This document shows, piece after piece, positions 1 to 19,700 of a DNA stretch of 22,125 bases; within the stretch, counting starts at the first letter, position 1; every line of letters begins with the position of its first letter. The stretch lies in IMG/VR virus record IMGVR_UViG_3300037961_002044, positions 1 to 22,125 of that record. One strand, 5' to 3'. The position numbers and the translations under genes are program-made. Origin of the DNA: a virus. Under the pieces are notes generated by a model that saw nothing but the letters and a program-made list of their open reading frames with translations, had not been told where the DNA came from and made no database searches.

Positions 1-174
1 CCTGTAAAACAGACTAGTATCAATGCAGTAATGAGAGGCATCACTCAGTTGATTAAGGCGTATGAAGATAAGCACAATGGGGGAGAACAATTCCCTACGA
101 AGTATTACTTTAAGACCTGTCAACATTGTAGTTTTATGCCTATATGTGATGCGGCACAATCAGAGGTATGGTGA
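1..174 (+). CDS. Cas4/RecB-like PD-(D/E)XK nuclease, C-terminal end only
   Basis: The frame is open from the first base and stops at a TGA at 172-174, giving the last 57 residues of a protein whose start lies to the left of the window. The tail reads KTCQHCSFMPIC, a C-x2-C-x5-C cluster close to the C-terminus. In Cas4 and AddB/RecB-like nucleases such a C-terminal cysteine trio, together with one distant N-terminal cysteine, holds a 4Fe-4S cluster. The catalytic motifs are outside the window, so the family call rests on this cluster and on the neighbouring replication and repair genes. Such nucleases trim DNA ends during recombination or genome processing. The next gene begins only four bases after this stop. 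A different Fe-S or zinc protein cannot be excluded. Confidence 0.6.
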   Translation, partial: PVKQTSINAVMRGITQLIKAYEDKHNGGEQFPTKYYFKTCQHCSFMPICDAAQSEVW

Positions 175-178
175 TAAT

Positions 179-538
179 ATGTTAAGTGATAAGATAAAAG
201 AATATTTGAGAGATAAGACTTGGAGTTTTAATGAGATAACAAACATAACGGAAGTTATTGATGAGTTAGCAGATACAACCTATGGAGACTTAGATGCGAA
301 ATCTAAGGTAGATTTACTATGGGATGTTGATATAGAAGAGGGACTAACCTTTGGGCAATTTTTCCAAGCGTTAGTTAAGAAAACACTAAAATCAGAAATA
401 GCAATAATAGTGAAAGCAGAATTAGATTCTGCCATAATAGAATTTAAGGTGAATAAAAATGAAGTTTCCGAGAGAAGTGTGGGCGGGGAGTCACATAAAG
501 AACGCTCCACAGATGAAAAGAGTAAAGATAAACAATAA
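179..538 (+). CDS. Hypothetical acidic protein, 119 aa
   Basis: I do not recognise this protein. A longer reading from 62 is open in the same frame, but it would overlap the end of the preceding nuclease by more than 100 bases. The ATG at 179 has a good GGTGA four bases upstream (170-174) and sits just after the preceding stop, so I chose it. The protein begins MLSDKIKEYL, is rich in Asp and Glu through about residue 60, has a hydrophobic/helical middle, and ends in a charged low-complexity Lys/Glu/Ser tail. No metal-binding cysteines, Walker motif or membrane segment is visible. Its last 80 bases overlap the primase gene in another frame, so the charged tail may partly reflect constraint from the primase. 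The operon context suggests a replication accessory factor, but this is only inference. Confidence 0.6.
   Translation: MLSDKIKEYLRDKTWSFNEITNITEVIDELADTTYGDLDAKSKVDLLWDVDIEEGLTFGQFFQALVKKTLKSEIAIIVKAELDSAIIEFKVNKNEVSERSVGGESHKERSTDEKSKDKQ
449..454 (+). promoter_or_regulatory. Ribosome-binding site fixing the primase start
   Basis: GGTGAA lies four bases before the ATG at 459, inside the preceding gene. The alternative Met at 513 has no purine-rich site upstream. This supports the earlier start and the 80-base overlap with the preceding gene. Confidence 0.6.
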
Positions 539-1454
539 AGATGAATTTGTAGTATGGGTTAATGCATTCAATGGTAAGATGAATTGTTATACATCTGTAT
601 ATGATTTTGGTAAGTATGCTGAAGATGCAGCCATTGACTCTACTTGTATCAAAGACAGAATGTTTTTAGATTTTGATGCACACGATGAGCCATTAGAAAA
701 TGCCTACTACGATTGTATTAGAGTATGTGATGTTTTATTAGAACAAGATGTATTCTTCAATATGTATTTTAGTGGTAAGGGTTTTCATATGATAGTTTAT
801 GGAGAACAGGCTGATGATATCAGAAGCATTCAGTCGTATTTCACCACGCTTACTCCTATTGCTCCGACTTTGGATAGGAGTGGAATTCAGGTTAAGAGGC
901 TTCGTAGGATTCCTAACACGGTCAATCTCAGTAGCAAAGGCCCGTACTTCTGTATTCCTATTACAAGAGAAGATTTAGAATCTGGATTGGATGTTATATT
1001 AGACAAAGCAATGACTGGTAATCATCCTCAAGTTAGGTATGGAAACAAGTTAGTCAAATGGCCTAATGTAAAGCCAATCGAAATGAGCGATATTGAAATT
1101 AATGCACCAAAGCCTGTTGGTGAATTACCGATACTACCATGTTTGCACAATGCAATTATGGTAGAAAACCCCGGACATTATGCAAGAGTGTATCTAACAC
1201 AATGGTATAGAGATATACTTACGATGAGAGAAAGACACATTAGCGAAGAAAAGAAAGCGGAAGTGATTGAGATAATAATAAATGAATTTAAGGCGATAGC
1301 AGACAAAGAAGATATATGGTTGGATTGGGATGAAAAGACCACTAGGCATCATGTTAAGTTTGTAGTTGATGGTGGATATCATGCTCCTAGTTGTAAAGAG
1401 AAATTGATTCCGCAGGGTTATTGTCCGGGTAAGTGTTGGAGGTATTGCGAGTGA
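459..1454 (+). CDS. Single-chain archaeo-eukaryotic primase: PriS-like catalytic domain fused to PriL-C-like Fe-S domain
   Basis: This 331-aa protein should make primers for DNA replication. The N-terminal part carries the archaeo-eukaryotic primase signature: motif I MFLDFDAHD with D71 and D73, motif II SGKGFH at 105-110 with H110, a probable motif III Asp at D139, and the RIPNTVN segment at 150-156. The region from about 223 resembles the C-terminal domain of the primase large subunit: LPCLHNAI (C228), a helical HYARVYLTQWYRDI stretch, then APSC (C312), GYC (C322) and GKC (C326), with a fifth cysteine C330. In PriL four cysteines so arranged ligate a 4Fe-4S cluster needed for primer initiation. 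Archaeal cells usually encode PriS and PriL separately, so a fused form is notable. The gene overlaps its neighbour by 80 bases upstream, and the downstream start codon overlaps its stop. The AEP call is firm; the PriL-C call is from motif spacing only. Confidence 0.9.
   Translation: MKFPREVWAGSHIKNAPQMKRVKINNKDEFVVWVNAFNGKMNCYTSVYDFGKYAEDAAIDSTCIKDRMFLDFDAHDEPLENAYYDCIRVCDVLLEQDVFFNMYFSGKGFHMIVYGEQADDIRSIQSYFTTLTPIAPTLDRSGIQVKRLRRIPNTVNLSSKGPYFCIPITREDLESGLDVILDKAMTGNHPQVRYGNKLVKWPNVKPIEMSDIEINAPKPVGELPILPCLHNAIMVENPGHYARVYLTQWYRDILTMRERHISEEKKAEVIEIIINEFKAIADKEDIWLDWDEKTTRHHVKFVVDGGYHAPSCKEKLIPQGYCPGKCWRYCE
1438..1443 (+). promoter_or_regulatory. Strong Shine-Dalgarno for a GTG-started mini-gene
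   Basis: GGAGGT lies seven bases before the GTG at 1451, within the last codons of the primase. It decides the GTG start of the 44-aa ORF over the later in-frame ATG. Confidence 0.6.
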
Positions 1455-1585
1455 TATGCGAGCCTTTAGAACATGAATGGGAAGTAGAAGAAGTATCAGG
1501 TAACAAAGATATATACAAAGGAATAGTGATGAAATTGAGATGTAGTAAATGTAATGCAAGTTTGAAAGGAGAGATAAACACATGA
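1451..1585 (+). CDS. Small putative zinc-binding protein, 44 aa
   Basis: The GTG at 1451 overlaps the primase stop (GTGA) and is preceded by GGAGGT at ideal spacing. The frame runs 44 codons to TGA at 1583-1585. The protein starts with ICEPLEHEWEV and ends with LRCSKCNASL. Cys3, possibly His8, and Cys31/Cys34 (CxxC) suggest a single small zinc site with a basic CxxC knuckle, as in mini zinc ribbons common in viral genomes. The next ORF starts on the ATGA that overlaps this stop. Coding status is supported by start and stop coupling at both ends and by a good ribosome-binding site. Function is unknown; a nucleic-acid or protein-binding adaptor is a guess. Confidence 0.55.
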   Translation: MICEPLEHEWEVEEVSGNKDIYKGIVMKLRCSKCNASLKGEINT

Positions 1586-1680
1586 TTGATGCACATGATA
1601 TAATGTATCTAGCGAGGTTGATGTTTTATTTGTCTATAACCGCATATATTACAAATGAGTTATTGTTGGTGATGCTATGA
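1582..1680 (+). CDS. Tiny hydrophobic ORF, 32 aa
   Basis: The ATG at 1582 overlaps the stop of the preceding mini-gene (ATGA). AAGGAGA lies eight bases upstream at 1567-1573. The product, MIDAHDIMYLARLMFYLSITAYIT followed by NELLLVML, is mostly hydrophobic from about residue 8 and could form one short membrane helix. Its stop codon overlaps the ATG of the nuclease gene at 1677, so it may serve mainly as a coupling leader that keeps ribosomes moving into that gene. It is too short for family assignment. The evidence is positional only. Confidence 0.4.
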   Translation: MIDAHDIMYLARLMFYLSITAYITNELLLVML

Positions 1681-2357
1681 ATAAATTGATAATAGATAGT
1701 AGAGAAAAATCTAATCTTTCTGAATTCATCATTTCAGAAGCAAGTAGAATGAATATACTTACTGAGAAACAATGGATAGAGATAGGTGATTATGTTTACC
1801 AAGATGTATGCTTTGAAGCAAAATCTACTATTGACTTCCTACAATCAGTATTGAATGGAAGACTATGGAATCAAGTAGATAACATGGATAGGCACTATGA
1901 ATATAGTATAGTCATAATACATGGTTCACTACATCAAGTAATGGCTTATCCAAAATATGTTAATATGGAAATAAATGAACAATTACTCAAACACAAATTC
2001 TATGGTGCAATTGGTAGGCTAACATTAGATACTGATTGTAAAGTGTTTTGGGTAGAAAGTCCTCAGAAGGCAGCCAAGATAATTACAACAATATGTAAGA
2101 TGAGGCCAGTTAAAAGAAGTGTAATTCAACCAACATTGTTGAAAAGGATTACAACTGATGACTTGAGATTAGATATGCTATGTACCATTAAAGGAGTTAG
2201 TAAATCTAAAGCAAAGAAAATTATAGAAAAATATGGTTCTGTTATGGAAGTAGGAGAATCTAATGTAAATGAATTATCCTCTATTGATGGCATAGGCCCA
2301 ACGATAGCAAAGAGGATAATAGACACACTAAATAGTGAAGAAAAAGTGGTAGTATGA
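1677..2357 (+). CDS. XPF/ERCC4-family structure-specific endonuclease with C-terminal HhH domain
   Basis: This 226-aa protein has the two-domain plan of archaeal XPF nucleases without a helicase part. The N-terminal ERCC4 nuclease domain shows IDSRE (D7, R9, E10), IGDY (G37, D38) and EAKSTID (E48, K50, D53), a variant of the family's GDx(n)ERKxxxD active site in which the Arg of ERK is Ala. The C-terminal part, about residues 167-218, has two helix-hairpin-helix units (CTIKGVSKSKAKKII and SSIDGIGPTIAKRII) that bind DNA. Proteins of this family cut branched or flap DNA near single/double-strand junctions during repair, recombination or fork restart. The ATG overlaps the preceding stop and has GGTGAT at 1668-1673. 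The stop overlaps the start of the ATPase gene, so the two are probably coupled. Confidence 0.9.
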   Translation: MNKLIIDSREKSNLSEFIISEASRMNILTEKQWIEIGDYVYQDVCFEAKSTIDFLQSVLNGRLWNQVDNMDRHYEYSIVIIHGSLHQVMAYPKYVNMEINEQLLKHKFYGAIGRLTLDTDCKVFWVESPQKAAKIITTICKMRPVKRSVIQPTLLKRITTDDLRLDMLCTIKGVSKSKAKKIIEKYGSVMEVGESNVNELSSIDGIGPTIAKRIIDTLNSEEKVVV

Positions 2358-3835
2358 ATTGGACTGAAACTAATTATAATGAATATGAAGACGAACTGTA
2401 TTACAGTTTCGTAGATGATAATACAACGACAGAAAGCAATAAATTGACATTGCCAAAGATTGTAGAAAAGTGGACTGCTGATGCGGTGTTGGCATCTAAT
2501 TACAACGATGTACCCGCAGCCTTAGCCTTCTTTTCTGTATTGGGTCAATTGTGTAAAGATATGATTGCTATTCCTAGTAACCTGAATGTTGATGATACTC
2601 GCATTCAGTTCCTTTGGATGCAAACATCAGGAACAGGGAAGTCAACATTGACTAATTGGTTCCTACCAGTATTGAGATTAACATTCGATACTATCAATGA
2701 AAAGCATGGTACTCATTTTGATATCTTTGATATTACAGATTATACTGATGCTGCGTTGATTGGTTCTTATGAAAAGAGAAGAGAAGAAGTAGAAGATGAT
2801 AACGGACAAATGAGAAGGATGGAAATTGATGTTCAAGTTCCCGGCCAGTTAGAAGGTGAAGGAATGGCTATGTGGGATGAGTTTGAGTATTCAGGTATAT
2901 TCAAGCAAAGCCAACATAAAGAACAAGCAATCGTATATCTAAATACATTCATGAATACTCTATGGGGAGAAACATGGGTTATCAGTAAGAAACTAAAACA
3001 GGGAGAAGACCCTATCATTTGTAAGTGTAGGCGTTCTGTATATGCTACTACATATATTCCAAAGGAATTGACTACTGTAATTACTGAGAAAGGTGTGCTT
3101 CAAAGGATTCTGATATTTATCTATGAAGTACCCCAACATCAGCAGAAGCAAATGAGAAGACAGTTAATCAAAGATTGGGGTGTAGTTGGTAATAGAGCAT
3201 TGCCTAAAACAACTTACGCCAAAAACTTCTTGACGTTATATGATACTCTAAAAGAAAGATTTGATGATGTAGGTCAAGACCCTCTAAAGACTATGAGGTT
3301 TAGTAAGAATGCAAATGACGCTTTAGAGAGAGAATGTGTATTGATGGAGAAATACATTGAAAGCAGTAGAATAGAAGTGTTTCAATCTGTTGAAACTTTC
3401 ATCAACAGAATGCTTAAACACATTCAAAAGATGGCTATATTGTGTGCAGTAGCAGAAGCCCCAAGTATATCTGATAAAGATAAAAGGTTCATTGTTACGC
3501 AAAAAAATGTACTTCAAGCATCCTCTCTAATTAGGAAGTGCTATAAGTCCCTCGTATCTTGGCTTGATGAAAGCCTACGGGAAGAGAAGAAGGGTCTGGA
3601 AGAAAGAGCCAATATAAGTGTCTTTAAAACGGTTTATCGTGAATTGAAATCTAAAGACGGATGGGTTAACAAGAACGTGCTATTCCAAAAGGTTAGGGAG
3701 AAGACAAAGAAAGGCCAATCAACCTTATACAAATGGTGGTCTAAGATTGAAGAATACTTTGAAGAAGATAAAATAAACCGAGTAGTTTATGTAAGATTAT
3801 TGGAGGACAAGAAAGATGGTGAAGTGGGAGAATAA
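2354..3835 (+). CDS. P-loop ATPase, probable replicative helicase
   Basis: This 493-aa protein has a clear Walker A, TSGTGKST at 91-98, directly after the strand IQFLWMQ. Walker B is probably GMAMWDE (D175, E176). A later segment, SVYATTYIPKELT to KGVLQRILIFIYEV (about 228-259), has the pattern of a sensor strand followed by a possible arginine finger R251, as in phage and viral DUF3987-like or AAA+/SF3-type helicases. The last 80 residues look like a winged helix, which is common in DNA-binding helicase tails. Placement between the XPF nuclease and the exonuclease, in an operon with a primase, argues for the helicase that works with the primase at the fork. It lacks recognisable MCM or DnaB signatures, so the exact family is uncertain. 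The start ATG overlaps the preceding stop (ATGA). Confidence 0.75.
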   Translation: MNWTETNYNEYEDELYYSFVDDNTTTESNKLTLPKIVEKWTADAVLASNYNDVPAALAFFSVLGQLCKDMIAIPSNLNVDDTRIQFLWMQTSGTGKSTLTNWFLPVLRLTFDTINEKHGTHFDIFDITDYTDAALIGSYEKRREEVEDDNGQMRRMEIDVQVPGQLEGEGMAMWDEFEYSGIFKQSQHKEQAIVYLNTFMNTLWGETWVISKKLKQGEDPIICKCRRSVYATTYIPKELTTVITEKGVLQRILIFIYEVPQHQQKQMRRQLIKDWGVVGNRALPKTTYAKNFLTLYDTLKERFDDVGQDPLKTMRFSKNANDALERECVLMEKYIESSRIEVFQSVETFINRMLKHIQKMAILCAVAEAPSISDKDKRFIVTQKNVLQASSLIRKCYKSLVSWLDESLREEKKGLEERANISVFKTVYRELKSKDGWVNKNVLFQKVREKTKKGQSTLYKWWSKIEEYFEEDKINRVVYVRLLEDKKDGEVGE

Positions 3836-4149: not shown

Positions 4150-4746
4150 ATGTCTGATGTATTAGCAATAGACCTTGAAACTAAGAATTACTCCTATGAT
4201 ATAGGAGGATGGGGTAATACCCATATGTTTCAAGTATCTACTGTATGCACATGGGATGGGGACAAAGGAACAATATACATTGATAAAGCAGTAGATGATT
4301 TGAAGAAATCTAATGTGGAAGTCAAGCCTATATCCCAATTGAAGTTTGACTTAGATGACCATTTGCAGAAAGGGGGTCTGCTTCTTGGTCACAACATAGC
4401 AGGTTTTGATTTACCTGTTTTGAGGGATTCACTAGATATATTCTGTATTCAGAAGTATATCAACAAGAAAGCCTATATTGACACAAGCCGTGAAGTAAGT
4501 AGCGTTATGGGTGAAAGGTATAGTCTGAATAATCTAGTGACACATACTTTAGAAGATGCTAAGATAATGCATAGCGAAGATGCGCCTAAAGTTTGGAAAG
4601 CAGGTGGCTATGCAGAAGTAGCAGAATACTGTTTGAAGGACTGCGAGTTAGTATTTGACTTGTGGAAGTATGGAATAGATAACGGAGTTGTAAAAGGCTT
4701 CGATATGAATGAAGAAGAAATGAAAGAGATTGAGGTGAACTGGTGA
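4150..4746 (+). CDS. DEDDy 3'-5' exonuclease (DnaQ/RNase H-like fold)
   Basis: This 198-aa protein carries all three exonuclease motifs of the DEDDy class. Exo I is LAIDLETKN with D8 and E10, exo II is GHNIAGFDLPVL with D87, and exo III is YCLKD with Y160 and D164 (Y-x3-D). These four acidic residues bind the two metal ions that cleave nucleotides from a 3' end. The protein has no polymerase part, so it is a stand-alone exonuclease, for proofreading in trans, trimming of primers or RNA, or recombination. The layout resembles the exonuclease domain of family B polymerases, but no polymerase is in this window. It lies within the replication operon and its stop overlaps the start of the next gene. 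Confidence 0.9.
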   Translation: MSDVLAIDLETKNYSYDIGGWGNTHMFQVSTVCTWDGDKGTIYIDKAVDDLKKSNVEVKPISQLKFDLDDHLQKGGLLLGHNIAGFDLPVLRDSLDIFCIQKYINKKAYIDTSREVSSVMGERYSLNNLVTHTLEDAKIMHSEDAPKVWKAGGYAEVAEYCLKDCELVFDLWKYGIDNGVVKGFDMNEEEMKEIEVNW

Positions 4747-5697: not shown

Positions 5698-5704
5698 TCA
5701 CCTC
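5698..5704 (-). promoter_or_regulatory. Ribosome-binding site fixing the chaperone start
   Basis: GAGGTGA on the - strand overlaps the fibre stop codon and lies five bases before the ATG at 5692. It argues for that ATG over the GTG at 5701 and for translational coupling to the fibre. Confidence 0.6.
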
Positions 5705-8700
5705 ATGCTACCGTAAAGTATGCCGTCATTCTTGCAGGGCCAACCTGTGTATTAGTATATCCCTGCATTCCTGTTGTTCTTAAATTGAAAGTATCTCCTG
5801 CTGCGTAAGATACACCAGTTCCACTTAATGATGTGAATGACCTAACAAACGCATTACCACCAGTTCCACTAGCATTAAATTGCATTGTAGTTGTACTGGC
5901 TGACCTATTCTTGAAAACTGTCATTGTCTGATTACTGGAATTTGTTTCACTACCATTATTACCGAATGCTATGTCTATTCTTGACAATGTGCAAGCAACA
6001 GGTAAAGCAACACCAAAGTCTGTTCCTGTTGAAGAATTAGTTGTATTTCTTGCTCCATTACCAAAAGACATTTGAAAACCATTTGCACCACCCGCAGCCG
6101 CCGTACTAGCGATATGAACATCAGACTCTTCACCAACAATAACGAATGTATTGGTATCTGTACCGCCACCACCACCGCTAACTGTTGTGAATGTTAACGC
6201 TCCACTACCATTGGTAGTTAGAACCTGTCCATTACTACCATCTGTAAGTGGGAATGTGTATTCATCGTTAAATCTAATCTTTCTATCAGGGCCGATTCTT
6301 AACGCTTCTACTGCATTTTCATGTCCTGCTGATTCTCCTGTTTTGAATACTATTCCTGAACCTGAATCATTGGTTGCGACTGAGTTAGCGATAATTAATG
6401 TGTTATTGTCTGTATTGTCATTATGGAATACATCAGATGAATGCCCAATAGATGAGTGTGTTGTACCTCCATCTAATACGAACTCCATATATGGTTGGTC
6501 TAATTCACCTGAATTGTCTGAATCTGCCCTTAATGATAATACTGCATCTCCGGCATGACCATCTACTATTAGTGTAGTACCATCCCAAGTAAGACCTGAT
6601 TCTGCATTCATGGCATCTGTGCCTGTTGCAGTTACAATTCTGTTGTCTGCACCATTAGTCATAAAGTCAGATACATCTACTGAAATTGCATCGGCCGCTA
6701 CATCAATACCAGTTCCCGCACCAATGTTTAGTGTTGCAGAACCAGAAGTCGCTCCACCAGTTAAACCATTACCTGCTACAACTGCGGTAATATCACCAGA
6801 AGCGGTTGTAAATCCACTATCATTATCAAACGCTGAAAGTGGTATTTCAGATATTAATTTCCTACGTTCTGCTCCATTGTCTAATAAAATCAATTCATCT
6901 TGGCTTGAGTTAATCGCAGCCGTCATGTCTGTAAATTCAGATAAATCAAGACTGATAGTTGGAGTAGTAGTTGCATTTGTTACATCTAAACCTGTACCTA
7001 CTGATATTTGTGTTACTGTACCTGCATTAGTTGTAAAACCTGCTCCGTTTGTTAATTGGTTATTGTTTGTTGGAATATCGCTTATGTATGCAAGAGTAGA
7101 AGCAGTTCCCCAATTAGTATCATCTTGGTCTGCTCGGTAGTGATATATTCTTTTTGTGCTATTCTTGGCGAATGCCAATATGTTTGCATCTCCACCTGTA
7201 TGTCCTGTGAATGTGTCTAATACTAAAACATCAACATAATCAGAAGCGGTAGTGGTTGAACCATCCTCTAATCCTGTTTTTGTTGAGAACCTTCCTGATA
7301 GTTCTCTAATGTTATTTGCCAAGTCATCAGGAGCAAAGTCCCTATCATCGTCTGTCCTTAGACGAGGAGCGAATATTGTTCTGAAATCCAAATCAAATGG
7401 GTCTGCATCTGAACCCGGAGATATATCAGAATAATTGATGTCTATACTTGTGTTACCACTATGGAACTTAACTTCTTCAGCGTTTGATATTGATACCTCA
7501 GTACCATCATCATCTTCTAGAACGAAACTCATTTGACTTGTAATAAATCCTGCATCGTTATTGAAACCTGATAGATTGATATTACCCTTAGTTAGTTTCT
7601 TCATAGCATTGTTAGTATCTACTACCGCAAAGAAATCACCATCCCCATCTGATGTAGACGTAGTTAATTCTGATAAATCAAGGTTTACTGCATTGGAAGT
7701 TACTGATATACCTGTACCATTTCCTACTGCTAGTGAAACACCGCCAGAATCTCCACCTCCTGTTAAACCTGCACCTGCGGTTACACCAGTTATATCTCCT
7801 GTATTAGCGTCAACATAACTAAACGAACCATCACCATCTGATTGAAGTAATTGCCCGGAAGTTCCATTACCACTAATATTCAATTGGGTAGCAGTAACCG
7901 AATTGTCTTTCAATGCGAAAGTTAAATCATATGGGTCGCCATCTGAACCATGACTTGTATCAGTCCAGTTAATATCAATACCAGTACCTTCAACAAATTT
8001 TATTTCTTTACCATGACTAATTGTAACTTCTGTTCCATCACCGTCTTCTAATTGGAATGTGGTTAATTGATTGGTGTTGGTGTTTGTATCAGTAGAAGCA
8101 ATGGTTATGTTATTAGCATCAGTATGTGTTAGTGTAATATTAGAACCTGCTACAAACTTAATGTCTTGTGTACCTGAACCTGCTCCACCCTCAGTTAGCC
8201 TAAGTATTATATCATTAGTAGAATCAACAAACGAAGATGTGTATGTATTCTGCGTGTTTGTATTTGGTGTTGTAACTGAGCCTCCTAGTGATATAGCAGA
8301 ACCGTTGATTGTTATACTGCTATTAGCCAAAGAACTGTTAGCAATATTAGTTATAGTGTTATTACTTGCATTAATTGTCTTATTAGTTAATGCTTGACTT
8401 CCTGCAAGTGTAGCGACTGTGGCATCAATAGCAACAGTTATGTTTCCACTTGAACCGCTATTAGCACCACTAATACCTGTACCTGTTGTTATGGTCTGAT
8501 TGTTCTCTCCTCCGGCTGCGCCACTAACTAATGTAAAATTGTCATCTGCATGATTGTATGTTACTACCATGTTATCTAGGTCAGAAGTAAGAGAAGCATT
8601 TGTGAACTTAAGATGACTAGCAAGTATTTGTGCATCACCTATCTTAGCATCTGTAATTGCATCATTGGCTATTCTTGCGGTTGTAATAGCACTTGTTCCT

Positions 8701-11700
8701 ATTCTTGCTGCGGGTATAGTACCTGTTGTTAATTTACTAGCAGAAATTCCTGATGCTAATTTATCATTAGAAATAGAACCTGCTAATTGTGCATTAGTTA
8801 TTGTTGAATTACTAATTTGACCTGCAATTGTATCTGCGGTAATAGAGCCACCTAATGATGTAGAAGAACCTGCAATTGTTATTGCGCTATTTGATAGTTT
8901 AGAATTAGCAATTGAACCTGCTAATTGAGAGTTAGAAATACCTGATGACTTTACTGTAACTAATCCAGAAGATACTGAGAAATCATCTTGACTAAATGAT
9001 GCTACTCCTTTATTGATAGCACTAGCATCTTCAGCACTAAATGTAACTGTACCAGAACTTTCAGCAACATCAATACCTTCACCTGCTGCGAATGTTATTG
9101 TTCCACCTAATGCAGTAGCAGTCGAGTTTGAACCATCACTTACAGTAATAGTTGAATTAGTTAATTTAGAGTTAGCAATAGAACCTGCAAGTTTAGCATT
9201 TGTAATAGCACTATCAGCGATTCTAGCAGTTGCGAATGTACCAGCATTAATTTTACTCGCATTAAGACTTGGTATTCTATCAGCACCTAATGTTCCTGCA
9301 TTAATCTTAGAAGCATCTAAGTTTGGTATATCGCTTGCTGCTAAATTAGCAAATACTACACCTGTCCCTGATAATGACAGACCAGTTCCGGCCGCTACTG
9401 CTACTGTTCCATCTCTATCTGGTAATGTTATTGTTCTATCTGTACTAGCGTCTTGAGCAGTAAGTTTGATTTCATGAGAATTACCATCACCTGCTCTAAA
9501 TGCTAGAGTGTTGTCTTCAACGATTTGTACTGTTTCACTACTATACTTCGTATCTCCTTTAACAGTTAAGTTTCCTTTGATTACAACGTTAGTATCTTCA
9601 CCTGAATCTCCTATGTTTAGTGTGTCATTTTCATTCATTGTTGCTAATGATGATATTATGTTAGCCTTATCAGTTACATCAGCAGATGTTTCAATTCCAT
9701 CCAATTTATTCTTTAGTGCGGTTGTAAAGTTACGCTGAGTAAGTCCACCATCTCCGACAGAATATTGAGTATCATTATCAGTCCAAGGTACATTGACATA
9801 CATTTGTCCACTTGATAGTTCAACAGGATAGTTCTTGTTATTCTCGGTATAACCAATCTTAACTAATCCTAGTGTGCTACTTGTAGCAGTTGAATAAGTT
9901 GTGTTATTATCTGTTGAAGTAATAGTTATTGTATCAGTTGATGTATTTGCTGATATTGTTGTAGCACCTGCTCCCACTAAGGTTAGAGTGTCAGTTTTTT
10001 GGTCTGCCTGTACTGTATCTGAACCAACTGCTACATTACTAAATGCGTTTTGATTTGTTTCTCCACTTGAACCGGATAGTGCGAACCTTCCATCTAAATC
10101 AACGGTAACATCAGAAAGACCACCGCTTCTACTTAGTGTCAATACACCATTGCCAGTATTGAATGTAGCGTCATCAACTTGTCTATCTGTATTTGCTGAT
10201 ACGCTGTTTTCTACAAATGCTTTGATAGATGCTTGTGATGCAGGTTTGTCAGTAGCATTAGAACTCATGTCGTTTTCGTTAAGTATATCAGAAGTTATAG
10301 AATAATTATTTGCAGTAGTGGTAATTGCACCTGTACTTGAATCATAGGATATTAATCCTGAGCCAGATATTTTACTTCTCACTTGTGCATCAGACAACTG
10401 AGTGTTATTATCAGCAGACCATGTTAATACACCATTGCCATCTGTTTTTAGGAATTGACCGCTATCACCATCATTAGGTGGTAGTGTTAATGTATAATCA
10501 GAACCAACATTAAGAGGAGTCTGTAAAACTATTTTGTTAGAGTTATCATTATCGAAGAACCTTAGAGTTGAGTTACTTCTAATGTCTAATGGTTTGAATA
10601 CTTTAACTACTGAGTCTATTGTTAAAACATCTACATTAGAACCATTTACTTTAGGTGTAAAAATTATTTTACCATCTTCTGAGCCATCAGAAATATCAAG
10701 CATTTGTGAACTGATAGCAGTATAACCAATTAATTCACTAGCATCATTTTTTCCGTGAAATGTAAACTTACCTAGAAAATCATTATCAGCAGGGCTAGAT
10801 GAATCTCGATGTATGTTGATGTTTGGCCCAGAGAATGCATCATTGTCTTTTGTAACTATTTGTAATGCAGGGCCACCTTCTCCGCCTGTTTGGTCATGAA
10901 TGATTGTTAATCTACCTTGGTTTCCAGCAGGGCTGATTGTCCCATCACCTACTATTACTCTTGAATCTCCGGCAGTAGCAAGAATAAGGTCATTGTCGCC
11001 AGTAGGGTCAATTGTCATATCTCCACTAGCGTTTGTAATAGTACCAGTTAATATTGGAGCAGTTAGCGTTTTGTTGCTTAATGTCTGCGCACCTGTTAGA
11101 GTTACATCAGCAGGTAAGTTAGTTAGATTCGCACCGCTTATGGCAGGTAATACTGCCGGGAACCTTGCATCAGGTATTGTTCCTGAAGTTAGATTTGATG
11201 CGTTTAATGCAGTAGCAACAGCGTAACCTGCACCATTAGTTAATTGATTATTATTGGTTGGTATTGTAGGTTTATTTTTAATGAATGCATCTGAAGAATC
11301 ACTTGTTTCATTGAAGTCTGCTTGAACGTTGACTTCTGCTCCATCAGCAGGTAAAGTATTAGGGAATACCTTTCCTGTACCTACTAATTCTGATGAAGTA
11401 ATCTTTGCTAATACATTTGCTATTGAAGCACTCTTGAGAGAACCGTTATCAAATACATACAAGAAGTCTTGTGCAGTATCTATACCACTTCCTAAGTCTG
11501 ATAAATCACTAAATGTAGAAGAGGCAGCGTGTTGTATAACAGAAGACTTTGATAATTGGGCATCTGCAAAAGTACCTGCATTAATTTTAGATGCGTTTAG
11601 GTTTGGAATGTCACTAGCAGTTATTTCTCCTATGATAGTGGCAGCAGATTTATTTTCTACATTTCCTAATCCTACATCTGCTTTTGTTGTTCCTACATCT

Positions 11701-13361
11701 GAATGAGTAACACCTGCTCTCATGGTAGCAGTTGTGATATTGTCTACGTTGCTTAATCCTACATCAGCCTTTACTAGTCCTAATGCTCCTTTACCAAGTG
11801 TAACTGCTACCCAATTTGCAGAGCCTACTGCTGATGCTCTATACATCTTATTATTATCATTTGAGTCTATCCATATATCACCAATCGCAGTAGCAGTAGG
11901 AGCGTTATCAGAAACAAATGTAGTTACTTGTGCTTGATTCAAAACATTGCTAAGTCCAACATTTGCCTTGGTAGTACCTGCTCTTATTGTCGCAGTAGAA
12001 TTGTTATCTACATTACCAAGGCCAACATCACCCTTTGTGACTGTAACATTGCTTGATAGAGCATGACCGTTAACTGTTGTACTAGTAGATACCTTACCTG
12101 CTAATGATTGAACCAATCCACCCGATACAGTATTATCCAATAGATAGTCTTCTAATTGTGCTAATGTGTCAATAGCGTTAGAGTCTGCTCCGAGTAGTGC
12201 ATCTATTTTAGCGGCTGCCTTTCCTTCAATGTATGCATCTGTTAATGTATCTGTTCTATTCTTTGCAGATGTTATATCACTAGCCTGTTGTGTAGTAATT
12301 CCTACTTTTTGAGTGTTAGCACTCACCGCACTCTCTAAGTCGCTGATATTTGGTATTGCTATTGTGCCACTAAATGTAGGATTGCTTAGGTTTGCTTTTA
12401 GGTTCAAAGCATTTTGTTGTGCAGTAGAAACAGGTTTAGCAGAATCAGCAGTATTGTCTACATTGCCTAGCCCAACATCTCCTTTAACCAATCCTAGTTG
12501 TGTCTTTACTTCTGATATACTTCTACCTTCTAAACCAGTATTAGTGAATCTAGCAAAGTCACCACTTTGAACAGAATTGTTATCTATCTTTACTGCATTG
12601 GTGTTTGATATCCCAAATGTAAGTGAACCTTGTACTCCTGTTGTCTTAGCAAGTGTGACTGCGTTATCTGCAATCATATTAGTAGCGACAGTTTGTGAAT
12701 CTGCTGTTGTAATTAATGTCCCTGTTATACTTGGAACAGTTACAGTTTTGCTTGAACTTGATGCATCTGTAAATGCTAATTTAGTATGGTAAGCGTTTGA
12801 TGTGTTATATGAATATATATCTCCATCAGTTTTTACCTCGAATCTCTTTCTGAAATCACCGCTATTTTCATCACCTGCGGTTAAAGTGTTAGTAGTTTTC
12901 TTTATTCCAACATACTGTATTTTTCTTTGAACTGCCGTTCCTGTTCCTTTTGCTATCTGAACAACACATATTGGAATATCACCATCTGTAAGGTCGGCAG
13001 TTTTAGCGGCTGAAGAACCTAAAGCATTCGTTCCTCTAAATGCTATTGCTCCACTTGCGTTTATTACAATAAAACCATACCAATCATAAGCGGTAGCACC
13101 TGTGAAGTTTGTACTGCTTTTATCGCTTTGCGCACCTAATGTTTTATACTCTCCTTTATCGAAGTAACCTCCGGGAGTTATATCGAATGTTCCATCTGAT
13201 TGAGATGTAACTTGGAATCCGTGTGCAATGAACGAACCTGCATCAGCAGTATTCAATGCTTTGATAATACCACTATGTAGATTATCAATACCATCTTCCA
13301 ACTGGTCGCTAGTTGTAGGTGCAACCTTCAATGTACTAATAAAGCCTGAAAATTCCGTCAT
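5703..13361 (-). CDS. Giant tail fibre protein, 2552 aa
   Basis: This is a long, beta-rich, Asn/Thr/Ser/Gly-rich virion protein, expected to bind the host surface. Residues 1-230 form a non-repetitive virion-attachment part. Next come several copies of the fibre repeat DVGLGNVDN (about 294-570), ASKINAGT and NAKLAGSIANSKL repeats (about 584-596 and 1345-1570), SNKTLTAPILTG and TNKTINASN elements, and duplicated blocks near 1764-1814 and 1942-1992. The last roughly 170 residues, after a Gly-rich SGGGGG hinge, are non-repetitive and are the likely receptor-binding head. Such repeats are typical of bacteriophage side and tail fibres that assemble as trimers. The start ATG overlaps the preceding stop and has GGTGAT six bases upstream (13368-13373). 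It is one of the longest single fibre chains I would expect from a virus. Fibre identity is firm; host specificity is unknown. Confidence 0.9.
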   Translation of the reverse strand: MTEFSGFISTLKVAPTTSDQLEDGIDNLHSGIIKALNTADAGSFIAHGFQVTSQSDGTFDITPGGYFDKGEYKTLGAQSDKSSTNFTGATAYDWYGFIVINASGAIAFRGTNALGSSAAKTADLTDGDIPICVVQIAKGTGTAVQRKIQYVGIKKTTNTLTAGDENSGDFRKRFEVKTDGDIYSYNTSNAYHTKLAFTDASSSSKTVTVPSITGTLITTADSQTVATNMIADNAVTLAKTTGVQGSLTFGISNTNAVKIDNNSVQSGDFARFTNTGLEGRSISEVKTQLGLVKGDVGLGNVDNTADSAKPVSTAQQNALNLKANLSNPTFSGTIAIPNISDLESAVSANTQKVGITTQQASDITSAKNRTDTLTDAYIEGKAAAKIDALLGADSNAIDTLAQLEDYLLDNTVSGGLVQSLAGKVSTSTTVNGHALSSNVTVTKGDVGLGNVDNNSTATIRAGTTKANVGLSNVLNQAQVTTFVSDNAPTATAIGDIWIDSNDNNKMYRASAVGSANWVAVTLGKGALGLVKADVGLSNVDNITTATMRAGVTHSDVGTTKADVGLGNVENKSAATIIGEITASDIPNLNASKINAGTFADAQLSKSSVIQHAASSTFSDLSDLGSGIDTAQDFLYVFDNGSLKSASIANVLAKITSSELVGTGKVFPNTLPADGAEVNVQADFNETSDSSDAFIKNKPTIPTNNNQLTNGAGYAVATALNASNLTSGTIPDARFPAVLPAISGANLTNLPADVTLTGAQTLSNKTLTAPILTGTITNASGDMTIDPTGDNDLILATAGDSRVIVGDGTISPAGNQGRLTIIHDQTGGEGGPALQIVTKDNDAFSGPNINIHRDSSSPADNDFLGKFTFHGKNDASELIGYTAISSQMLDISDGSEDGKIIFTPKVNGSNVDVLTIDSVVKVFKPLDIRSNSTLRFFDNDNSNKIVLQTPLNVGSDYTLTLPPNDGDSGQFLKTDGNGVLTWSADNNTQLSDAQVRSKISGSGLISYDSSTGAITTTANNYSITSDILNENDMSSNATDKPASQASIKAFVENSVSANTDRQVDDATFNTGNGVLTLSRSGGLSDVTVDLDGRFALSGSSGETNQNAFSNVAVGSDTVQADQKTDTLTLVGAGATTISANTSTDTITITSTDNNTTYSTATSSTLGLVKIGYTENNKNYPVELSSGQMYVNVPWTDNDTQYSVGDGGLTQRNFTTALKNKLDGIETSADVTDKANIISSLATMNENDTLNIGDSGEDTNVVIKGNLTVKGDTKYSSETVQIVEDNTLAFRAGDGNSHEIKLTAQDASTDRTITLPDRDGTVAVAAGTGLSLSGTGVVFANLAASDIPNLDASKINAGTLGADRIPSLNASKINAGTFATARIADSAITNAKLAGSIANSKLTNSTITVSDGSNSTATALGGTITFAAGEGIDVAESSGTVTFSAEDASAINKGVASFSQDDFSVSSGLVTVKSSGISNSQLAGSIANSKLSNSAITIAGSSTSLGGSITADTIAGQISNSTITNAQLAGSISNDKLASGISASKLTTGTIPAARIGTSAITTARIANDAITDAKIGDAQILASHLKFTNASLTSDLDNMVVTYNHADDNFTLVSGAAGGENNQTITTGTGISGANSGSSGNITVAIDATVATLAGSQALTNKTINASNNTITNIANSSLANSSITINGSAISLGGSVTTPNTNTQNTYTSSFVDSTNDIILRLTEGGAGSGTQDIKFVAGSNITLTHTDANNITIASTDTNTNTNQLTTFQLEDGDGTEVTISHGKEIKFVEGTGIDINWTDTSHGSDGDPYDLTFALKDNSVTATQLNISGNGTSGQLLQSDGDGSFSYVDANTGDITGVTAGAGLTGGGDSGGVSLAVGNGTGISVTSNAVNLDLSELTTSTSDGDGDFFAVVDTNNAMKKLTKGNINLSGFNNDAGFITSQMSFVLEDDDGTEVSISNAEEVKFHSGNTSIDINYSDISPGSDADPFDLDFRTIFAPRLRTDDDRDFAPDDLANNIRELSGRFSTKTGLEDGSTTTASDYVDVLVLDTFTGHTGGDANILAFAKNSTKRIYHYRADQDDTNWGTASTLAYISDIPTNNNQLTNGAGFTTNAGTVTQISVGTGLDVTNATTTPTISLDLSEFTDMTAAINSSQDELILLDNGAERRKLISEIPLSAFDNDSGFTTASGDITAVVAGNGLTGGATSGSATLNIGAGTGIDVAADAISVDVSDFMTNGADNRIVTATGTDAMNAESGLTWDGTTLIVDGHAGDAVLSLRADSDNSGELDQPYMEFVLDGGTTHSSIGHSSDVFHNDNTDNNTLIIANSVATNDSGSGIVFKTGESAGHENAVEALRIGPDRKIRFNDEYTFPLTDGSNGQVLTTNGSGALTFTTVSGGGGGTDTNTFVIVGEESDVHIASTAAAGGANGFQMSFGNGARNTTNSSTGTDFGVALPVACTLSRIDIAFGNNGSETNSSNQTMTVFKNRSASTTTMQFNASGTGGNAFVRSFTSLSGTGVSYAAGDTFNLRTTGMQGYTNTQVGPARMTAYFTVA
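7384..8070 (-). repeat. Duplicated ~50-residue fibre module
   Basis: Two copies lie at about 7918-8070 and 7384-7535. Both contain LED(G/D)DGTEV, then a stretch ending in (E)IKF or EVKF, then SIDINYSD or GIDINWTD, then GSDADPFDL or GSDGDPYDL. They are diverged but clearly homologous, showing a segmental duplication about 180 residues apart within the shaft. Confidence 0.75.
8640..9330 (-). repeat. Fibre repeat region with SxxxNxKLAGSIANSKL and ASKINAGT units
   Basis: At about residues 1345-1570 the fibre repeats short elements: IPNLDASKINAGT, IPSLNASKINAGT, ITNAKLAGSIANSKL, ISNSQLAGSIANSKL, ITNAQLAGSISNDKL, ARIGTSAIT, ARIANDAIT. A further copy, IPNLNASKINAGT, lies near 11575-11615. The pattern suggests a beta-helical shaft grown by slippage or unequal recombination. 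Confidence 0.75.
11650..12485 (-). repeat. Fibre repeat array with KxDVGLxNVxN units
   Basis: Five units occur in the fibre: KGDVGLGNVDN twice, KANVGLSNVLN, KADVGLSNVDN and KADVGLGNVEN. Three are followed by a variant of (S/T)ATxRAG or SAATIIG. The same DNA motif recurs on the + strand as a CTACATTxCCTAxxCCxACATC-like string. Spacing is irregular (about 20 to 140 residues), so these are protein modules and not a simple tandem repeat. Confidence 0.75.
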
Positions 13362-13708
13362 TAAGGAATCACCACCCTAAAAGTGAAACTTAATGTCTCA
13401 CTTGATGCTAATGGGCCTATGCTCTTAAAGTTGACTCGGCTCAACATATTACCTCCACTAGAGGCATCAAAAACACCCATTTCTGATATTACATTGGATA
13501 ACAGTTCTGCACCTGTAAAGGTGACTGTATAGACAATTGTATTACCAACTACTTGTTTTGAGTCTGCGGCTTTTCTAAAGATTTCATGGTCTAATGTATT
13601 TTGGCTTGTTGAAGTATCATCACCACCATCTCCCACGGCAATATGACCAAAACCATTTGTTCCAATCAATAAATCTGCTGTTTTGTTTTTACCTGCATCT
13701 GTTATCAT
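13361..13708 (-). CDS. Small tail protein upstream of the fibre, 115 aa
   Basis: The protein begins MITDAGKNKTADLLIGTNGF, then GHIAVGDGGD, and continues with NTIVYTVTFTGAELLSNVIS and EMGVFDASSGGNMLSRVNF, ending in a strand-rich SFTFRVVIP. This plan is found in small phage tail proteins encoded beside fibres: an N-terminal helix on a free end, then the GxG(D/S) turn, then a beta-sandwich with an E(M/V)G(V/L)F motif. The role may be to cap the baseplate or dock the fibre. The ATG overlaps the hub gene stop (ATGA), with GGAGG ten bases upstream. The stop overlaps the fibre start (TAATG). No catalytic residues are apparent. Assignment to a specific family is from pattern only. Confidence 0.65.
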   Translation of the reverse strand: MITDAGKNKTADLLIGTNGFGHIAVGDGGDDTSTSQNTLDHEIFRKAADSKQVVGNTIVYTVTFTGAELLSNVISEMGVFDASSGGNMLSRVNFKSIGPLASSETLSFTFRVVIP

Positions 13709-16700
13709 AATTCTATTTCCTCCGTTGTAACAACATCACTCCCTGCATTCATTGTTGTTGTCCAACCTATTAAGGTTCCCCAACCTAATGATGTTCCTGT
13801 GGGAGTGGTTCTTTGTGATATTAATGAAACTTCATCTATACCAATCTCTTCAAACAAGGATTTACTGGTTACTTCAGCAGTAACATCCTTTGTTAATAAT
13901 GTAGAAAATCCTCCTTTTCTTTCTATATTCATTTCAGCGAGTCTTTCTGCTATTGTCTTATTAAACGTACCAACAGTTATTTTACTGATAGCAGACATAG
14001 CATTCTCTATTTCATATACAATATAGTCATCGGGGGGAATGTTGTGATTAGGGAAGTTAAGTGTGATTAAATCACCGGGTTTCATTAATTTCATTTCATC
14101 CTTTCTTTCAATCTCAATAGTTACTTTTGTTGTCTTAGCATTGTGCAATGCCAGAAGTTGTTCTGCCTTTACTTGGGCTTCTTTAGAATATTTGATGTTA
14201 GAATCAATATGCGTCAAAGTCCTAGTATTTTTATCGGTAGGCATTTCTGTTGTGGCTTTTACATTATCTCCTATCACAACTACCTTGTTGGCTCTATCAA
14301 AGAGAGATGTGTTGTTTTCTGCACTTATCAGATTTTGACCATCCCTGTATCTAAGTGAAAATATTCTTCTCGATGAGTAATCATCAATATCTCTAATCTG
14401 AATTTTCTCTCCTTTGAATACATACTCTAGTCCTTTCTTTGATGCTAAGAAATTGACTGCGGTAAAGACATCATTCTCAGCAAACCTTGTGTTGATTATA
14501 AATGGCCTTCTTGTGTATTTTACTAGTTCCTCGTATTGTTGTGGAGTATAGAATGTATCAACTGTGCTATCGCTATCATAGTCAACATCATCTAATGTTA
14601 GTGTAGTAGTGCCTTGACCTGATGCTACTAAACCAATTAGTTTGCCATCTTGATTGTATAGTGTATCTCCATTTGCTATTACATCAGTTGCTACTGCTGA
14701 TTGTAAAGTAATGTTATTTCCAGAAGTACCGCTAACAATAGCACCTGTAAACGTTAGGTTTCTCTCGCTATCATCCACTTCTATATCGTTCTCATTTAGG
14801 ATTTCGTTAATGGCAGTTTCAGCATCCAATCCTATTGCCATAGTAGTTCCTATGTATGCTCTTTCCACGCCATTTTGTAGCGGTGTGTTTGTTGTGATTG
14901 TGAATGTCTTACCAAAGGAAACAACACCATTTCCTGATAGTGTTCCTTCATAGTCAAATCTTAGGCTTTGTCTGCCAGTAGTAATATCTTTGGTAACAGT
15001 AATGTTCTTTCTAGTCGTAGTACGCCCATCAGTTATACAACAATCAATAACTTCTCCGTCATCAAATAGTTCAAGGCTTTGCTCTACCAAGTCTATATTC
15101 TCTACCATTTTATTATTAGAATCTAAATCATCATCAACATCGAGTAAGACATACATTGAGACTATTCCTTCTCCTGTAAAGTTGGTTGTGGTTGCTCCCA
15201 TCGTTGCAGGTTCTCCTGTATCTAATCTAGTTGCAGTATCATTGTATTGAAGTCCTGTATGTATCTCCTTGTTGAATTCGATAAAGCCCGGAGTTTCATC
15301 AAACGTAGTTTCTGATACTCTCATCAATCTATATCGTTGGCTTGCAGTTAAATCAGCATTCAATGTCAAAGTATGAACTGCGTGTGTACCGCTATCATTT
15401 ACAGTATGTGAAATTATTTTCAATGTGTCTTTACCATCACCTAGTCGAACCAAATAATATCCAGTTAGATTAGGAGCATAGTGAATCCAATTATGTGTAT
15501 TGCTTGCATTCATTGTAATTGTGATTGTGCTTCCTGACATCCCATCTGTTCTGATTGTAGGTTTGATTATCATCTGTGTTTGATATAATTCACCAGTTGT
15601 ACTTGAAACGTCATTATGATGTATTTGACCTACTTGGGCAACAGCATCATCTTCACTAATAAAAGGTGCTTGTTTAGTCTTAGTTCCTATGTATGCAACG
15701 TCTGGGCTACCCAACTGGTCTATTCTCATATTACGGCTATGTTGTTGTCTATCGGTTGATGGACTTGCATTTTCTTCATAGTTATTGTAATTAGTTTGAG
15801 TATCTAATTCTAATAGAGATGAGGTTGTAATGATATCCCTTTGATTACTACCCTGTGATTCTTTTATTGCTCCTCTAAAATGCTTGAATACTCCTATGCA
15901 ATTATCATACAGATGCGTACTTCTGGCTGCTTTGTATTGGTCTGGACTAGGATAATCATCAGCAGTATTACCATCGTTATCAAATGTTGTGAATGTCTGC
16001 ATTTGTAATGCGTTTATTATTCTAGAGTAATGCCAATATTTGATTGCATAGTCTTGTTCATCTTGACTGGTAGTGCTATCACCATCGAAGTCTAATGCCC
16101 AATCTCCTTCTGAATGATATGGAGAACGTCTAAAGTTATCATTGTCGCCAGAACTACCTCCATTATGATGAAATATTTCAGGTATAATTGGTAGGAAAAT
16201 ATTGTTAGGAATAAACGGATTTACTGAAGCACCGTTGACCAACGCTGTATGTAATTTATCACTATGTTCAAAATAGTCATTTTTGTTTATATGACCATAA
16301 GTAAGATAGACTGCAAGATGTCTCATATCGTTAGCATTGCTTAGTGAGTCTAAACCAAAACCATCATCTGTCAACATATCGAATACTCTTACATTTGCCT
16401 TGAATACAGAAGTAGACGTAGTGTTTTGGAATACAGTTACGTTTGAGCCTGTTATTATACCAGAACCATTAGTGGATATAGTCGCATATCCAGTACCGTT
16501 TATTCTAGCAACAAGACTGCCATCTGATGTTTTGAAGAACATATCTCCTTCCTTGAAGTTTCTTACTACTGCCCCACTACAATTGATTGAATTAGTAGAA
16601 GCATTTCCGGCGTTACTTGCTACCATTGTAAATCCTAATGATTCTGGTGTCTTCCATCTTGGATATGAGAAGTTACTTATCTTAGGTACTGTATCTATAT

Positions 16701-19700
16701 CTTGTAAAGACTCAGCATCAATAGGAGTAAAGTGCCAATCAAATGTAGCCTCTACTAATCTCATTACTCCAAACCTTTTGATGTTCGTAGGTGTAGTAGA
16801 GGAGGAATTTATTTTATGAATATTATAGTTAGATTCGCTTGCTAATGATTGGAAACTACCGCCTGTATAATTAGCGTGACTAATACTAGAAGTGTCTTTC
16901 TGTCCTATCTTTTCGGTCAACAAACCATAGTTAGTAAAAGCACTCGACTGAAATAGGCTATTGTATCTTAGTTTAGATTCTGGATATAAATCTCCAACAC
17001 TTAACAATTCATATTTTTTGGTTCTAAAGTCCTTTTGTTCTACATCTCTAATTGATGTTGTTGCTACTGATGTTCCTGTTCTTGTTTCAGGAAACTGCTT
17101 TGGTAATAGAGTGAGTTTGTCGCTACCTGTATAGTTATCATCATGGAAGTTACTACCCAGAATAGGCTTGTTGCTAATGGTCACATAATCTGTACTGTTG
17201 ATTGAGCCATCAGCGTTTATTCTATATGCAGGTGCATACCCCATAATCTTTTGATTTCTAGGAGAGTCATTCAAAACGGATGTGAAAGTCTCTTTCAGTT
17301 CGCCCGGATTCACTCTTTGTATTGGATTGTATTTGAATGACTTACTTGAAACATATTCTGATGTGTTATCGCTCTTGAGAGTATGAATGAATCCCGACTT
17401 TGGTATGTTTCTATTAACCATATACAGATTGCTATTTGCAGATGTAAATGTATTATCAGAACTATTATTCTCTATACTACCCAAAACAATTGGAAATGTA
17501 GGAGCAAGTGTGATTGTAGTTAATCCGTCTTGTGAAACGCTATCTAACACATTGAAGTATGTAGATGTAGAAAGGCTATGTATAGAACTCAATGTTGTAG
17601 ATACTTCGCTTTCTAATCCTATCTTGAATGCAAACTTGGAATCCTTTGCTCCTATGCTGTTTGTATCTATGATATCAAAACCAAGAGAATTGTCTGTATT
17701 GTAACTTCCAGATGCAGAAGCATATGCTAAATCTGCATAGGTAATATTAGTTGTTATTGGGCCAGTACCACTATCATTAAATTTGACTTTCTCTCCATCT
17801 ACAAAGACTACTCCTTTATCTCCTGTTGAAGTGAAGTCGGTAGGTGAAGTAGTAAGCGTTGGGTTTGCTGAAAGGGCTTTTATTCCTGTGATGTATGTGC
17901 CTGTATCTCTTCTGTATAACTTAACAGTAGCCCCGCTATTTACTTGGGTTTCTGATATGTTCGGGCTTCTGAGTGTAATAGTATAATCTCTATAACCAGT
18001 ACCAATAGCAACATTACCTACCGCACTTATTTCACCAAGCAAATTACCGCTACTATCCATCAGAACATCAAATGGTTTAGGTATTATTCCCAAAGCATAT
18101 TGAGCATCAGTTATTCTAATTTCTGTTCCTGTTCCTGTGGCAGTTAAGTTACCATCAATTGTTACATTGACAGTATTATCTAACATAGGTGAAAGAGTCG
18201 AATGAATAATATCATTGGTATGGTTCAAGTTTTTATTAGTGGTGTTACCAAGCAGTTTGGATAGTTTGTCCCTACCTGTTATCTCATAAGTGACCATACC
18301 ATTCTTGTTCTGTGAATTGATATCTTCAACACTACCGTTGAACACTTCTTCATCAATAGCGTAGTTACCTGATAGATAATACAACATTGATATTGGGGTT
18401 GTCTGATAATATTTCTTACTTGTAAAATCAGATGATAATTTAATTTGCTTATGTACCGAATCACCATAATCAATATCTATTTGATGGTTAACAAATTCTG
18501 GACTGAGCAACACTAGTTTGTTATCATTCAAAGAAGCATTTGTTTTGCTGATTGTGCTTCCATTGATAGTGAGTCTTTGGAAGGTATTGCTACCATATAC
18601 TGCTTCTGTATCTATCGGGAATGTACCTTTGAGAGAACCATTCCATGCTCTAATGTATGCTATTTCATTAGTGAAGGAAGGCATTGATGATATGTTATTC
18701 CATGTTGCTTCACTATCAGTCTTTATCTTATTTACAGTTATATCCTGTACTCTAACTCCATCTACAACCGCAGGTGCAGTAAAGGCTGAAATAACGTAGT
18801 AATTCTTTCCTACTCTTATCAAATCATTTACCTTTAAGAAATTGTCATTTCTTACATCAAAGAGTTCTGTGATTGCATTCAATCTAATTTTGTTTCCTGT
18901 TACACTAGTTACAGTAAAGGGTAGTTTGTATGTGTTAAGTGCAGATGAATGTAATGTATTTCTTACTGTAAAGGAATGGTCTTCTTTGAGTTTCAGATGT
19001 TGTATTCCTGACATATCGAATACTTTTGCTCTTGCTATCTGGCTCATTTTGTTTCGAGGGAAATTAACTGATGCTTCTAATACAGGGTCTACTATGTTGT
19101 TCTTTAGGTTAGAAGACTTGTAGTATAGGTATCTACTTGGCCCTGTAAAATTACCATGATTGAATCTATATGTTCCTGTTGCGAATGTATCTGAATGTGC
19201 AGAAGTTTTGTCTTCTGTGCTTCTGCTATAATTCCTAAATGCATATCCCCATCTATCAGGAGTAAATGTGTATGTGCTTGCAGTATCGAAATCGGTTGCA
19301 CTATCTGTTCCTACTTCTGTAATATCTTTACTTCTTTGATTGTCTACTAAAACTGCGTTGTGTTTTATTGTCCCCAAATCAGTAATGTTAACTCCATATT
19401 CTTGTTCCGTTAGGAATATTGTTTGTTGAATATCCCTACCAACGAAGTATAAATCTGCTGCGTTGATTAAACTTTGAGTTGAAAGAGATAGGGGTCTTCT
19501 AGGATAATCCAAAGTAATTGTACTATTTGCACTATCATACGATGCTATATTGCCTATCCATTGAACATTACCTGCGTTGATTCCTTTGTATAAACTTCTA
19601 CCAATATCTGCATCAGTAAAACTTCCTGTATGTTCTGCTACAACGTATGTTGATTGGTATGCAGTAACTTGATTTGTAGTGCTTGACCTTATTCTGCCTT

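Follow-up and report, generated by a model that had tools for sequence, protein, structure and literature searches.

In most cells, the catalytic subunit of the primase and the iron-sulphur initiation domain are two separate proteins. The locus described here raises the question whether one viral open reading frame of 331 amino acids provides both. The window, i.e. the whole stretch of DNA that was analysed, comprises 22,125 nucleotides (positions 1 to 22,125 of IMG/VR virus record IMGVR_UViG_3300037961_002044). The genes around the primase are as follows.

1..174, + strand: Cas4/RecB-like PD-(D/E)XK nuclease, C-terminal end, cut by the contig end (frame read from the sequence)
179..538, + strand: small conserved protein, 119 aa from the ATG at 179 (homologue upstream of the primase in 60/60 loci)
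459..1454, + strand: fused archaeo-eukaryotic primase, 331 aa (ORF list; 133 distinct relatives; full-length halovirus homologues)
1677..2357, + strand: ERCC4 (XPF-type) nuclease with helix-hairpin-helix (PF02732, E 2e-17; PF14520, E 3e-10)
2354..3835, + strand: P-loop ATPase (TSGTGKST), DUF3987-like (PF13148, E 2e-4, below the gathering score; synteny in 60/60 loci)
4153..4746, + strand: 3'-5' exonuclease, kin of DNA polymerase exonuclease subunits (phrog_403, E 1e-6)

For the small protein, which overlaps the primase start by 80 bases, no family match was obtained. The Cas4-like nuclease has an intact orthologue in the relative L007, which matches PF12705 with E 3e-14. The DUF3987-like ATPase is a candidate for the replicative helicase partner. 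Between the primase and ERCC4 genes (window 1452-1676) small ORFs are found, one of them with CxxC; in L007, with a primase 88% identical, the two genes overlap directly.

In one IMG/VR scan 385 relatives were confirmed. Relatives were taken from viral contigs, and 133 distinct full-length sequences with 49-100% identity were aligned. The gene order was compared in the 60 loci with enough flank. On one strand, the order PolB N-part, PolB C-part, Cas4-like nuclease, small protein, primase, ERCC4-HHH nuclease, P-loop ATPase and 3'-5' exonuclease was present in 60/60 loci, one of which has its Cas4-like match at the front instead. In 47/60 loci PolB follows a possible clamp, whose match is weak (phrog_947, E 1e-3). 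A large marine clade with this fixed replication block is what the present analysis adds. Most of the 13 large relatives have PolB divided between two ORFs. These ORFs are adjacent and lie just upstream of the primase block (e.g. G002:C1:60970-62209); in a few relatives PolB seems to be a single long ORF (e.g. 987 aa in G007).

The N-terminal catalytic half

459..1073, + strand: PriS/AEP catalytic domain, ~residues 1-205 (hhalign to the P74-26-like N-terminal domain; Foldseek; TIGR00335 match of L040)
669..677, + strand: motif I, D71-F72-D73, putative metal ligands (D71 and D73 in 133/133)
771..788, + strand: motif II, S105-G-K-G-F-H110 (all but K107 invariant)
873..926, + strand: motif III, D139 to N156, LDRSGIQVKRLRRIPNTVN (D139, R147, R150 and N153 in 133/133)

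Reading of the ORF gave D71, D73, SGKGFH for S105-H110, RIPNTVN for R150-N156, and C228, C312, C322, C326 and C330. The motifs of the AEP superfamily are all present: DxD as motif I, sG-G-H as motif II and an acidic D with the R-P signature as motif III. The AEP active site described in the earlier note (D71/D73, SGKGFH, RIPNTVN) was found as stated there, with its key residues invariant in 133/133 relatives; the acidic residue of motif III, D139, was absent from its list. This residue stands in TLDRSGIQVKRLRRIPN. The order in LD139RSGIQVKRLRRIPN is presumably that of the third acidic motif of PriS, an acidic residue with an RL-R-PN signature, and H110 we take to be the AEP catalytic histidine. 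Over the whole protein, D71, D73, S105, G106, G108, H110, D139, R147, R150, N153, C228, H240 and R243 were invariant in the 133 aligned relatives. The conservation of residues in this set is far beyond chance expectation.

For the window primase itself no Pfam match was obtained, and direct PriS matches of marine relatives were marginal (PF01896, 0.03; TIGR00335, E 0.015 for L040). The comparison of profiles by hhalign was controlled by 60 column shuffles each. Between the N-terminal domains of the marine and the P74-26-like phage primases the match had E 7e-15 (0/60 shuffles), and 6/6 of these phage primases match PF01896, the Pfam PriS family (best 9e-11). Thus, the marine domain is linked to the PriS profile through the phage proteins.

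A structure model calculated from 76 sequences including druskaviruses reached pLDDT 87 and pTM 0.82; an earlier model from 29 close relatives had pLDDT 66 and an unfolded tail. In a Foldseek search with the pLDDT 87 model, the best 35 PDB matches were AEP catalytic domains throughout, and each of the 17 matches at E<=1e-3 was an AEP domain. LigD polymerase domains, archaeal PriS and Prim-PolC were leading, with E 7e-5 to 1e-3. Searches of the PDB sequences by phmmer and hmmsearch gave chance matches only. By profile and by predicted fold, the N-terminal half of the marine primase is an AEP domain.

The C-terminal half and its cysteines

1110..1451, + strand: PriL-CTD-like domain, residues 218-331 (hhalign to the druskavirus CTD; druskavirus protein matches PriL NF002589, E 8e-4)
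1140..1142, + strand: C228, predicted 4Fe-4S ligand 1 (133/133; aligned with the haloviral Cys)
1176..1187, + strand: H240-x-x-R243, predicted initiating-NTP binding residues (133/133; start of helix 240-255 in the model)
1392..1394, + strand: C312, predicted ligand 2 (132/133, one gap)
1422..1424, + strand: C322, predicted ligand 3 (131/133, two gaps)
1434..1436, + strand: C326, predicted ligand 4 (131/133, two gaps)
1446..1448, + strand: C330, not a family ligand (Cys in 20/133)

Residues 218-331 are predicted as a helical domain in the pLDDT 87 model. Among the best 50 PDB matches of the whole chain in Foldseek no PriL-CTD structure occurred; in a viral structure library, the match A0A1S5Y2Y2, which has this fold, bears the name archaeal/eukaryotic primase large subunit.

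The relationship to PriL was followed by hhalign through a chain of intermediates. The marine CTD matched the druskavirus CTD (E 2.6e-8), the CTD of druskaviruses and hafunaviruses matched the P74-like CTD (E 4e-4), and the latter matched PriL of Sulfolobus solfataricus (Sso; E 1.5e-6) as well as human/yeast PriL (E 6e-5), each with 0/60 shuffles. Furthermore, over its Cys region the primase of the druskavirus HCTV-16 matches three NCBIfam models of archaeal PriL (best 8e-4), and 5/6 P74-like primases match PF04104 (best 4e-4). Compared directly, the marine CTD gave a weak score with Sso PriL (E 0.017, z 2.7), no score above the shuffles with human/yeast PriL and no significant score with the P74-like CTD. 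A direct Pfam PriL match was obtained neither for the window primase nor for its relatives. Through the druskavirus and P74-like intermediates, the assignment of the C-terminal half to the PriL-CTD type is established at the level of sequence comparison. The presence of PriS and PriL Fe-S domains in one chain, as claimed before, therefore stands for both domain homologies by way of intermediates, while the direct PriL comparison is weak. The profile searches that had been proposed as a check gave the same picture, reaching PriS and PriL via intermediates, with direct matches marginal for PriS (0.015-0.03) and weak for PriL. A separate PF04104 gene was not found in the 13 large relatives; the same search also misses the fused protein, so that this is weak evidence for the absence of a separate PriL.

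The cysteine layout of the PriL-CTD was found, with four cysteines in order, the first on the first helix and the last three near the C-terminus. C312, C322 and C326 are Cys in all ungapped sequences among the 133 relatives. The spacing in the marine clade is C-x82..84-C-x8..9-C-x3-C, compared with x63/x8/x3 in Sso PriL, x73/x8/x3 in P74-26, x65/x8/x8 in druskaviruses and x79/x16/x39 in human PriL. In sequence, it resembles Sulfolobus PriL. The PriL-CTD order attributed to C228, C312, C322 and C326 in the earlier note is thus borne out by conservation in essentially all 133 relatives and by a spacing like that of Sso PriL. Its suggestion of C330 as an alternative ligand has to be dropped, as has C330 as a fifth one, since Cys occurs there in only 20/133 relatives; the others mostly have P, H or Y. 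Two further cysteines were considered as ligands and rejected, C43 because it is variable (93 C, 40 V) and C165 because the aligned haloviral primases have another residue. C165 (window 953-955) is invariant in the 133 marine relatives.

Of the eukaryotic PriL-CTD, the second half is almost missing in archaea (PMC2852410), and the short archaeal-type tail of the marine CTD is consistent with this. R243, the Arg at position +15 from the first Cys, does not vary within the marine clade; druskaviruses and P74-26 have an Arg there too. In human PriL R302 sits at this position, and the H-x-x-R pattern would instead fit H303/R306. Initiation requires R306 of human PriL, which is R355 in yeast (PMC5700102).

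Coordination of a structural zinc by the four cysteines, in a PriL-like or helical domain that is redox-inert, is regarded as improbable. CxxxC together with a distant Cys is able to bind zinc, and AEPs often carry zinc modules, as P74-26 does at its N-terminus. However, the order and spacing of the cysteines follow PriL, whose cluster is of the 4Fe-4S type (PMC2852410). Moreover, purified PolpTN2 is brown and its truncation without the cysteines is not (PMC3973330).

Proposed mechanism

We regard the protein as a replicative primase, in which a PriS-type AEP domain (1-205), a short linker and a PriL-CTD-type helical domain (218-331) form one chain. The probability of this reading is estimated at about 0.87. 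C228, C312, C322 and C326 would hold a 4Fe-4S cluster, which would staple the C-terminal tail and the first helix of the CTD together. H240 and R243, where helix 240-255 begins, would grip the initiating nucleotide by its triphosphate and present it to the AEP site (D71, D73, D139, H110), where the first dinucleotide would be made. The N-terminal domain by which cellular PriL docks on PriS is absent in the marine primase, and the covalent linker would substitute for it. The primers would then pass to the PolB of the virus, a product of the gene block that also holds the primase. The role of the predicted cluster may lie in structure and not in catalysis, because the primase of S. solfataricus initiates without its cluster, which is dispensable for priming there (PMC5700102).

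A function in repair or lesion bypass, as a primase-polymerase and not as a replicative primase, is rated slightly lower even than zinc binding. LigD polymerase domains and Prim-PolC are the best PDB fold matches, and the genes of the Cas4-like and ERCC4 nucleases adjoin the primase gene. The high rank of LigD is, however, attributed to the small AEP domain, and LigD is without the PriL-CTD initiation module which the marine primase has. In addition, in 60/60 loci the primase shares its block with PolB and the DUF3987-like ATPase. No second primase was seen within the window, and magroviruses are described with one archaeal-type primase (PMC10768690, PMC12999244).

Least probable, and given hardly any weight, is an unrelated helical extension or PriCT-1-type bundle with a few cysteines converged on the PriL-CTD: the direct hhalign comparison with cellular PriL is weak and PriCT_1 matches 4/6 P74-like primases, but a significant, shuffle-controlled chain leads through druskaviruses and phages, PriL NCBIfam models are matched, and PriCT and PriL Fe-S_N are regarded as homologous (PMC5862659), so that the PriCT match is compatible with PriL.

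With the fused replicative primase as the preferred reading, an abundant marine virus clade that goes undetected by Pfam and NCBIfam is now seen to have a complete one-chain primase. A protein of 331 aa with both initiation modules is a practical subject for studying the role of the PriL-CTD and its Fe-S cluster under covalent docking. The architecture is already on record in haloviruses; hence, the gain lies in annotation and in a compact test system, and no new principle is involved.

Relation to known primases and identity of the virus

Fused primases were known before. The primases of druskaviruses and hafunaviruses (HCTV-16 gp99, HVTV-2 gp100, HRTV-2 gp64; phrog_9660) are full-length homologues of the marine primase, with the same order of PriS and PriL-CTD and the four cysteines in register. 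In hhalign both halves of the marine primase align to the corresponding halovirus halves, phrog_9660 is matched by 24/29 marine members (best 6e-9), and the relative L040 matches a halovirus primase in tblastn with E 1e-7 over 93%. The window primase as tblastn query against phages gave no match. Differences are the low identity (~25%), the length of 382-420 aa, the druskavirus spacing of x65/x8/x8, the hypersaline hosts, and PCNA and RFC among the primase neighbours. The GenBank entries of these viruses annotate the primase as small subunit N-terminal, large subunit C-terminal.

The marine-like two-domain architecture is also present in the primase of the Thermus phages P74-26/P23-45 and its kin in Bacillus and Moorella phages (phrog_16345). 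The P74-26/P23-45 primase is similar in size (338 aa), has x73/x8/x3 spacing and carries the Arg at Cys+15. This group differs in its bacterial hosts and in being annotated as small subunit only, and the P74-26 primase has an N-terminal Cys-rich module. Six P74-26-like primases named small subunit only (L110, L250-L254, from Thermus, Bacillus and Moorella phages) carry a C-terminal PriL-CTD-like Fe-S region (PF04104 in 5/6).

PolpTN2 of the Thermococcus nautili plasmid pTN2 (ORF 10248-13013) is likewise a fusion of PriS and PriL with a predicted 4Fe-4S cluster, and its primase and polymerase activity was demonstrated (PMC3973330). It is larger (~920 aa), with additional PriCT-1 and winged-helix parts, and its catalytic His is replaced, whereas the marine primase retains H110. 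A cellular priS-priL gene fusion, likened here by description, is reported for DPANN cluster 2 and Undinarchaeota (PMC7414124). The cellular archaeal PriSL shares the active-site motifs and the Cys pattern of the PriL-CTD, especially C-x8-C-x3-C of Sso; it differs in its two genes and in the N-terminal docking domain of PriL.

The novelty first attributed to the fusion was therefore overstated, as fused forms are annotated in haloviruses and known from pTN2 (PMC3973330) and DPANN (PMC7414124). With the P74-26-like phages as a further example, the architecture is already known; since fused homologues are annotated in haloviruses, the marine clade is a new branch and not a new architecture. The minimal primases of marine and halophilic archaeal viruses and thermophile phages, consisting of PriS and PriL-CTD with a linker replacing the docking, might form a single ancient viral lineage that preserves the state before the split into two subunits. 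We consider this unlikely and mention it as speculation.

Published descriptions of magroviruses (PMC10768690, PMC10160649) give genomes of ~90-110 kb that encode an ERCC4 nuclease and a DNA ligase besides a split PolB, and in which the replication and structural modules are opposed. The marine viruses agree with these descriptions in split PolB, ERCC4 nuclease, ligase and opposed modules; the ligase (ATP-dependent), an SU10-type capsid protein and tail proteins are encoded by a 96-kb relative. The families PCNA_N and Cpn60 were not found in the 13 large relatives. On the basis of the published descriptions, the marine clade likely corresponds to the magroviruses (Magrovirales). The source virus of the window is a tailed marine virus, probably of archaea. 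An identical primase is encoded on the 24-kb contig L082 (NZMJ01000151.1), binned in a bacterial Maricaulis MAG. This is most likely a mis-binned virus contig, and it gives no evidence for Maricaulis as host.

On the opposite strand of the window two very large ORFs of 2552 and 2274 aa (5703-13361 and 13705-20529, - strand) are likely virion adhesion or tail proteins. Between them, a small tail-fibre-like protein is encoded.
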